Shown piece after piece: positions 58,096 to 59,829 of a stretch of 64,000 nt of DNA. The stretch covers positions 822,725 to 886,724 of the forward strand of contig NZ_FNWU01000001.1 in assembly GCF_900108505.1 (NCBI RefSeq). The letters run 5' to 3'. The notes beneath the pieces were generated by a model, which was given only the letters and a program-made list of their open reading frames with translations, was not told where the DNA came from and searched no databases. Positions within the stretch are counted from its first letter, which is position 1; the number at the start of each line of letters is the position of its first letter. A program made the translations under genes and the position numbers. The DNA is from Halopenitus malekzadehii (GTDB lineage Archaea > Halobacteriota > Halobacteria > Halobacteriales > Haloferacaceae).

Positions 58096-58314
58096 GTGAC
58101 AGGAGGCACCACGGTGCACGACTCAATGTGGACTGACGGCGGCGCACGGACCGAGACCGACCGCGCGGCGGAAGCGGAGGCGGTCGTCGAGGCGTTCCTC
58201 GATCGTGACCTCGTGGACGGTGACACACGGTCGGAGCTCCGCCGGCTGCTCGCGGCGGATCGGCCCGTGGAGGCGCTGCGGATCGCGACGCGGCAGCGAC
58301 GAAAGGGCCGGTGA
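58096..58314 (+). CDS. Small acidic protein (72 aa)
   Basis: A frame from GTG 58096 with strong GC3 bias, containing ETDRAAEAEAVVEAFLDRDL and SELRRLLAADRPVEALRIAT: two amphipathic helices and a basic C-terminus RQRRKGR. The TATA spacing fits a leaderless GTG start; GTG 58114, preceded by GGAGG, is an alternative. No family is recognised. It ends just before the hairpin-rich spacer upstream of trpB. Confidence 0.6.
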   Translation: MTGGTTVHDSMWTDGGARTETDRAAEAEAVVEAFLDRDLVDGDTRSELRRLLAADRPVEALRIATRQRRKGR

Positions 58315-58674
58315 ACCGCCTCGGGGTCAAGTGGGTCGAGACGCCGAGCGTCTCGTCATCACGGAAGACAACGTCTTCCGTACGACCCCGAGGCTTCCCG
58401 TGGGTTAGTCGGACACTCCCACGATACCATCGGCCTGATAACCTCGAACGGCGTCGTGGGTCACGGTCGGGGCGTCCACGGCCCCCGATGCCTGCCGTCG
58501 TCGTCCGAAAATCGGAGATTTCCGGACGACCCCGAGGCACTCGGCCTGCTCAGCCTGTAGATCGGATCACCTCACCGCTGCGACTACCCGACTGGCCAGC
58601 AGCCCAAGAGGGACGCCAGACGGGGGGATGCCGGATGGCGGTGACACTTTTAAGCAGCCTTCCCGAAGGGACCG
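58315..58674. ncRNA. Strongly structured spacer before trpB, candidate structured RNA
   Basis: A 10-bp outer stem (58319-58328 with 58384-58393) encloses two hairpins: 58337-58343/58349-58355 (7 bp) and 58361-58369/58373-58381 (9 bp, loop AAC), a cloverleaf-like three-way junction. Further stems are 58399-58404/58418-58423, 58467-58472/58483-58488 and 58500-58513/58517-58530 (14 bp with one mismatch, loop GGA). The sequence GACCCCGAGG follows the 9-bp hairpin and occurs again at the end of the 14-bp hairpin. Because the trpB TATA box is downstream (58646-58655), this is not simply a trpB leader; it may be a separate RNA or the end of a lost mobile element. Confidence 0.5.
58646..58655 (+). 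promoter_or_regulatory. TATA box of trpB
   Basis: ACTTTTAAGC centred 25 nt before ATG 58675; indicates a leaderless trpB transcript that starts downstream of the hairpin array. Confidence 0.6.
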
Positions 58675-59829
58675 ATGATGACGACCGGAGATTTCGCTGG
58701 ATACGGCGGACGCCACGTCCCCGACCCCCTTGAAGAACCGCTCGACCGGCTCGCGACCGCCTACGACGAGATCGCCGACACGGAGTCGTTCCAGGCCGAG
58801 CTCCGTCGCCTGTTGGAGGAGTACGCGGGACGATCGACGCCCCTCCATCACGCGGCACGCCTCTCGGAGCGCTACGGCGCGGACATCTACCTCAAACGGG
58901 AGGACCTGCTCCACGGCGGCGCCCACAAGATCAACAACGCGCTCGGGCAGGCCCTGCTCGCCAAGCAGGCGGGCAAGGACCGGCTGATCGCCGAGACGGG
59001 CGCGGGCCAACACGGCACCGCGACCGCGATGGTCGGCGCGCTGTTGGACCTGGACACGGAGATCTACATGGGCGCGAAGGACGTCGAGCGCCAGCGGATG
59101 AACGTCTTCCGGATGCGCCTGATGGGCGCCGAGGTGAACGAGGTGACCCGCGGCGGGGCCGGACTCGCGGACGCCGTGGACGCCGCTCTCGAGGACTTCG
59201 CGGGCACCGTCGCCGACACCCACTACCTCGTCGGCAGCGTCGTCGGTCCCAACCCGTTCCCGCGGATGGTCCGCGACTTCCAGTCGGTCATCGGCCGGGA
59301 GGCCCGCGAGCAGTTCCTGGACCGAACCGGCGAACTGCCGGACGCGGCGGTCGCCTGCGTCGGCGGCGGCTCGAACGCGATCGGCCTGTTCCACGCGTTC
59401 GGCGACGACGACGTCGCCTTTTACGGTGCCGAGGGTGGCGGCGAGGGCACCGATTCGACGCGACACGCGGCGCCGCTGGCCAGCGGCCACGACGACGTCA
59501 TTCACGGGATGAAAACGCGCGTCATCGACGAGGACGTCGAGGTGCATTCGGTCTCCGCCGGGCTCGATTACCCCGGCGTCGGCCCCGAACACGCGATGTT
59601 CCGGGAGCTGGGCCGGGCCGAGTACGTCGGCGTCGACGACGACGCCGCGCTCGCCGCCTTCCGCGAACTGAGCGAGACGGAGGGGATCATCCCGGCGCTG
59701 GAGTCGAGCCACGCGATCGCCCGCGCGATCGAGCTCGCGGAAGCCGGCGACCACGAGACGATCCTCGTGAACCTCTCTGGGCGCGGCGACAAGGACATGG
59801 AAACCGCCGCCGAACGATTCGACCTCTGA
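58675..59829 (+). CDS. trpB: Tryptophan synthase beta chain
   Basis: A 384-residue TrpB1-type enzyme: [20 protein letters not shown] at the start, the PLP lysine in [45 protein letters not shown] and [13 protein letters not shown]. It joins indole (normally tunnelled from TrpA) with serine. It stands alone here: haloarchaeal trpB is usually in a trpCBA operon, but neither trpC nor trpA is adjacent. ATG 58675 is favoured over 58678 by TATA spacing. Confidence 0.93.

Follow-up and report, generated by a model that had tools for sequence, protein, structure and literature searches.

The spacer in front of trpB raises the question of why so short a stretch of haloarchaeal DNA should fold into so many hairpins. 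In the window, by which we mean the whole stretch of 64,000 nucleotides that was analysed, an initial annotation had described a cloverleaf-like array at 58315-58540, and its impression of an unusual density was correct. The cluster has 43 bp in perfect stems of at least 7 bp, compared to 11.1 ± 7.4 bp (maximum 31) in 300 dinucleotide shuffles, and 2 of 565 segments of equal size across the 64 kb reach this density, one of which overlaps the cluster itself. Its folding z against shuffles was -3.3 on the plus strand and -4.0 on the minus strand. The enclosing stem is perfect and measures 11 bp (58318-58328 with 58384-58394) instead of the 10 bp first given; the larger enclosed hairpin has the 9 bp described (58361-58369 with 58373-58381), and the smaller one has 8 bp (58337-58344 with 58348-58355) instead of 7. 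The 14-bp hairpin (58500-58513 with 58517-58530) is 93% complementary with one mismatch. The sequence GACCCCGAGG occurs twice as reported (58384-58393 and 58528-58537), both times as part of a 19-nt direct repeat whose copies differ at one position. The cluster had no match in Rfam at gathering or permissive thresholds, ARAGORN found no tRNA or tmRNA in it, and phage records gave no match to it.

We consider, with a probability of about 0.92, that the cluster is a 246-bp non-autonomous, core-deleted derivative of an IS200/IS605 transposon (a PATE) on the minus strand, with a two-hairpin repeat nested in one of its end hairpins. An element end had been one of the two possibilities raised at first, and it is the one that held. 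The other, a free-standing small RNA, found no support, since Rfam had no match and the conserved RNA structure is that of the omega-RNA and right end of a tnpB transposon. The true extent of the feature, 58311-58556, is slightly longer than was first described and was set by full-length and minimal copies and by sister species without the element. The search for other genomic copies that had been proposed was positive: a DNA search of the genome set, from which the counts for the own genome are taken, detected copies in 51 of its 60 genomes, the own genome accounting for 14 matches. Because these copies, once read, showed so, the minus strand is taken as the relevant one.

Full-length relatives occur in the own genome and in other haloarchaea. 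On contig C25 of the own genome (L031), the ends of the window element flank both tnpA (PF01797, Y1_Tnp, E 2.4e-39) and tnpB (NF040570, E 2.3e-39), and in L040 (genome G046) they flank tnpB. The canonical left end reads CTAC, followed across the junction by AGGCnnAGCAGGCCGAGTG and the hairpin CCTCGGGG-CTTGA-CCCCGAGG, and nearly all copies have (T)CTACAG or close variants at this end. The canonical right end reads CCACGGGAAG, the hairpin CCTCGGGG-CTTGA-CCCCGAGG and then CGGTTCAC, after which unique sequence follows. In the shortest form, L028 of about 50 nt, both ends are fused on one shared hairpin.

Along the minus strand, the window element begins beside a probable CTAC target tetranucleotide (58557-58560; GTAG on the plus strand), as indicated by the left ends of the copies and the empty site of the sister species G001. 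The left end (58530-58556) includes the 5' arm of the end palindrome, CCTCGGGG, at 58530-58537 and matches the left ends of L031, L040 and L048. It is followed by the 14-bp hairpin (58501-58529) and by the last 32 codons of tnpB (58405-58500, RRQASGAVDAPTVT to GVSD-stop), which overlap the omega-RNA scaffold region and were recognized by comparison and covarying stems, the GVSD-stop C-terminus being judged against the annotated TnpB of H. salinarum R1. The right end (58311-58393), delimited by copy comparison, has the arms of the end palindrome, CCTCGGGG and CCCCGAGG, at 58386-58393 and 58319-58326, a remnant of the CTTGA loop at 58327-58331 and the terminal CGGTTCAC at 58311-58318. If an RNA were made, the TnpB guide would lie just beyond this end, at 58291-58310, judging from the omega-RNA anatomy of IS200/IS605 elements.

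PATEs were described in Haloquadratum walsbyi by Dyall-Smith and colleagues, together with repeat-mediated core deletions and insertions into palindromes (PMC3119063). In all the features tested, the host element agrees with the definition of a PATE. Its ends are related to those of an IS605-type transposon and have near-terminal palindromes, and with 246 bp and 32 tnpB codons it is too short for a transposase. The termini differ and form no inverted repeats, and the flanks GGGCCG and GTAGATC have no repeat in common that would indicate a target duplication. Its presence and absence at one site, a sign of mobility, was seen at the level of species rather than strains, the element being missing in the sisters G001 and G002. 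The published PATEs likewise derive from IS605 elements, have near-terminal palindromes without terminal inverted repeats or target duplication, are too short for a transposase, have lost the core between direct repeats, and include 52-bp terminal-only forms, represented here by L028 (PMC3119063). Unlike them, the window copy keeps the tnpB 3' and omega-RNA region and has a 54-nt repeat in its end palindrome.

How the core was lost may be recorded in the 14-bp hairpin, which is best read as a deletion scar. Judging from copies of the module and from the tnpB 3' inserts of L031 and L040, its first half corresponds to the beginning of a repeat lying in a left-end hairpin, and the second half matches the repeat at the tnpB 3' end; the two source repeats have a common AAATC-loop-GATTT stretch. 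Such a joint would agree with the published cases of PATEs that lost their core through repeats. A second core-deleted copy (L050 1708-1918, genome G016) has a different joint and also keeps the tnpB 3' and right-end region. We name no direct parent of the window element, because its right end is nearer to a copy in genome G045 (95% over 189 nt) than to the IS of the own genome (88%).

The insertion site was examined in the two sister species of the same genus, whose spacers before trpB are without the element. In the window, a small ORF of 66 aa (58114-58314, plus strand) runs into the right end of the element. This ORF is conserved in both sister species and has no Pfam match. Its end reads GGC CGG TGA, the TGA coming from the terminal TTCAC of the element (complement GTGAA), and GTAG stands at the far side (58557-58560). 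Both G001 and G002 have the stop TAG, the ORF ending in CGGTAGACG or CGATAGTCG, of which CGGTAGACG is the G001 sequence at the site corresponding to the CTAC/GTAG side of the element. In the simplest reading, the element would have inserted beside CTAC (minus strand) at the very position of the stop codon, its TGA replacing TAG; the allele before insertion would have been GGGCCG-GTAG-ATC, written out as GGGCCGGTAGATC. This joint is proposed rather than proven, because the flanks of the sisters have otherwise diverged.

The same comparison bears on trpB (58675-59829, plus strand; TIGR00263, E 1.2e-160), which lies downstream and outside the element. The position of the cluster and its strong hairpins would suit a trp leader, an attenuator or another cis-regulator of trpB, but neither sister species has the element in its trpB spacer, copies of it lie at many unrelated loci, and its conserved strand is antisense to trpB. 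A regulatory role of this kind is therefore extremely improbable; the doubt about an attenuator voiced in the initial annotation was justified, and the trp leader was rejected after both G001 and G002 had been examined. No trpA ORF lies directly downstream of trpB in the window, and the own genome has a second trpB-like sequence (G000 C27:259269-259875) with 74% DNA identity.

The three-way junction behind the cloverleaf is real; what escaped the first reading is that a second repeat is nested in the end hairpin. The junction arises because a 54-nt two-hairpin repeat (58332-58385, hairpins at 58361-58381 and 58337-58355) sits in the CTTGA loop. Comparison of IS copies showed that the loop is split by a clean 54-nt insert, arranged as TCGT, hairpin, TGATGA, hairpin and GAACCA, without target duplication, and the unit was also recognized by covariance model hits and by covariation. 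A relative of the repeat, with its best match in the reversed direction, splits the 3' end of tnpB in both L031 and L040 and cuts the protein off at ..STERRSLS, so that the TnpB of the C25 IS is itself shortened by a copy of the repeat. Elements were found with neither insert (L048), with the tnpB insert only (L031), with the right-end insert only (L045 and L043) and with both (L040). Since all four combinations exist, the repeat comes and goes independently of the IS.

Other copies sit in quite different places. In L099 (616-2001, contig C10 of the own genome), the repeat is in frame inside another TnpB and adds 18 residues, and the same repeat is present in L100 and L101. On a plasmid of Halobacterium hubeiense, adjoining an ISHhu1-family tnpA, lies a TnpB of 96% identity without exactly those 18 residues, and Salinigranum marinum has the insert at the same TnpB position as L099. 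This resembles the in-frame REP insertions known from bacteria. In genomes G018 and G044, the left-end hairpin contains the repeat in 20 copies at dispersed loci (L242-L261). A compensatory change distinguishes the palindrome CCTCGGGG/CCCCGAGG from CCACGGGG/CCCCGTGG. Because the sequences upstream of the left end differ among the copies in G018 and G044, the elements carrying the repeat have most likely spread by transposition. Copies of the 54-nt unit are found in the hairpins of both ends, at the 3' end of tnpB, within the reading frame of a TnpB and outside IS sequences; with its imperfect GTsGTTCG terminal inverted repeat, the unit behaves as a short mobile repeat in its own right.

One might suppose instead that the two hairpins belonged to the IS right end from the start and have disappeared from some copies, as they occupy one exact position in many IS ends. 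We regard this as very unlikely, because the repeat is also found reversed at the tnpB 3' end, in left ends, and in frame in a TnpB whose close relative is precisely without it. It is also found outside IS sequences, and the IS605 palindrome holds 22 of 81 parsed copies of one subtype, compared to 59 elsewhere. These 81 public copies, whose start was set by a regular expression with 2 unparsed copies left out, are mostly 54-62 nt long, and they are preceded by G in 77 cases and followed by C in 80. Non-IS copies (L077, L078, L082 and L083; public copies such as L112, L138 and L156) often lie after CTCGCTG and before sequence of the CGCTCCTC type, as if placed in another GC-rich dispersed repeat.

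A covariance model recognised the mobile repeat in 51 of the 60 genomes; the highest number in one genome was 64 matches, a maximum that counts both strands of some quasi-palindromic copies. The own genome has 14 strong places, several of which are identical copies near contig ends. Copies of the repeat or the IS lie near the ends of contigs C10, C16, C21, C24, C37 and C39 of the own genome (G000), so that the true copy number here may deviate from the one counted. Of 197 genomes drawn across the phylum, 32 matched the repeat, all of one order, and no match was listed outside this haloarchaeal order. In an exact pattern scan of public genomes, the titled records among the matches listed were haloarchaea or archaea of hypersaline metagenomes.

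Two known kinds of repeat are close in character. SMR-A of Haloquadratum also sits in near-terminal palindromes of IS605 elements and PATEs, with inverted terminal repeats, no target duplication and no mobiliser identified (PMC3119063). However, SMR-A is about 110 bp long, while our repeat mostly has 54-62 nt with two hairpins around TGATGA and also occurs in tnpB and non-IS sequence. As the length differs, and the comparison covered the published description of SMRs, we withheld this assignment. The head-to-head dimers of bacterial CGTC-tagged REPs share two short palindromes with 8-9 bp stems and a CCA tail; some families lie within palindromes and some in frame in genes, and no dedicated transposase is known (PMC3733652). 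Our repeat has these stems, the tail, the dimeric form and loops of 3-5 nt, but its spacer is TGATGA without the unpaired CGTC head, and it is haloarchaeal whereas those REPs come from bacterial phyla; its assignment as a CGTC REP was rejected because the tag is missing. We thus report it as REP-dimer-like or SMR-like in its features, not as a member of either. Literature searches with strings of the repeat sequence returned unrelated papers only, which is weak evidence of novelty given their partial coverage. Our tentative proposal, for which we claim somewhat less than even odds, is a haloarchaea-specific, REP-dimer-like mobile family, undescribed in the literature found, that would insert between G and C, often in IS605-end palindromes and tnpB, including in frame and within omega-RNA scaffolds, and would reshape or disarm TnpB elements while moving with them.

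Compensatory changes, the other check proposed initially, were present in both hairpins of the repeat and in the omega-RNA stems. In an alignment of 23 copies, the three helices were paired in 95.6% of cells and 12 pairs had changed on both sides; cells with two-sided changes numbered 48, compared to 16.5 ± 3.4 in column shuffles, a count that is not a probability because the copies are related, and at most 10 in slid controls, which preserve this relatedness. In the tnpB-overlapping region, two helices covary in 19 copies, with two-sided changes in 10 of 18 pairs. Such paired changes are not expected from coding constraint alone, and the helices look as expected of an omega-RNA scaffold. As in the omega-RNAs (sotRNAs) of Halobacterium salinarum TnpB, where the tnpB 3' end overlaps a structured RNA with the right-end hairpin (PMC12558985), the window has a structured region over the tnpB 3' end together with a right-end hairpin, and this region is 91.5% identical to a tnpB locus on plasmid PHS2 of H. 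salinarum R1. In contrast to that system, the element has no tnpB gene, its right-end hairpin is enlarged by the repeat, and the RNA is a putative one.

Could the element have been kept as an omega-RNA gene in its own right, with transcription from the minus strand, a TnpB acting in trans and the flank as guide? The complete tnpB 3' and right-end region with its covarying stems would allow it, omega-RNAs of Halobacterium tnpB loci are expressed and processed (PMC12558985), and the second core-deleted copy, L050, keeps the same region. However, the insertion is species-specific and missing from both sisters, the main scaffold stem of the window has one C-A mismatch, and the genome's one closely related TnpB is truncated at its C-terminus. 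We consider such a function unlikely and prefer to see the region as a remnant in a core-deleted PATE.

In IS200/IS605 biology, the transposase TnpA acts on single-stranded hairpin ends. We suggest that the element descends from a full-length TnpA/TnpB transposon whose core was deleted, so that the two ends remained and, between them, the last 32 tnpB codons with the scaffold region of the omega-RNA. The element would have inserted beside the CTAC target between the small ORF and trpB, and a separate 54-nt repeat, by whatever means it is mobilised, would have inserted in the end-hairpin loop and produced the three-way junction. Most likely, a Y1 transposase (TnpA) acting in trans would recognise the subterminal hairpins on single-stranded DNA and move the element. 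The element may tolerate the nested repeat because this folds by itself and does not disturb the terminal stem.

An unexplained hairpin cluster can in this way be dissected into two layers of mobile DNA: a TnpB transposon without its core, and a repeat for which the end hairpin serves as landing site. This repeat shows covariation and occurs in most of the haloarchaeal genomes searched, yet Rfam has no match for it, and screens of haloarchaeal spacers for regulatory RNAs should mask or annotate it. Its presence in tnpB and in the right-end hairpin of omega-RNA loci offers a natural test of how far a TnpA-recognised end or an omega-RNA scaffold tolerates insertions. A variant of the repeat was also seen in genome G007, where 11 copies (L228-L238) share one homologous context with flanks resembling tnpB-derived sequence; its spacer is mostly TGATCACGA, and both ends read TCGTTCG/CGGACGA.
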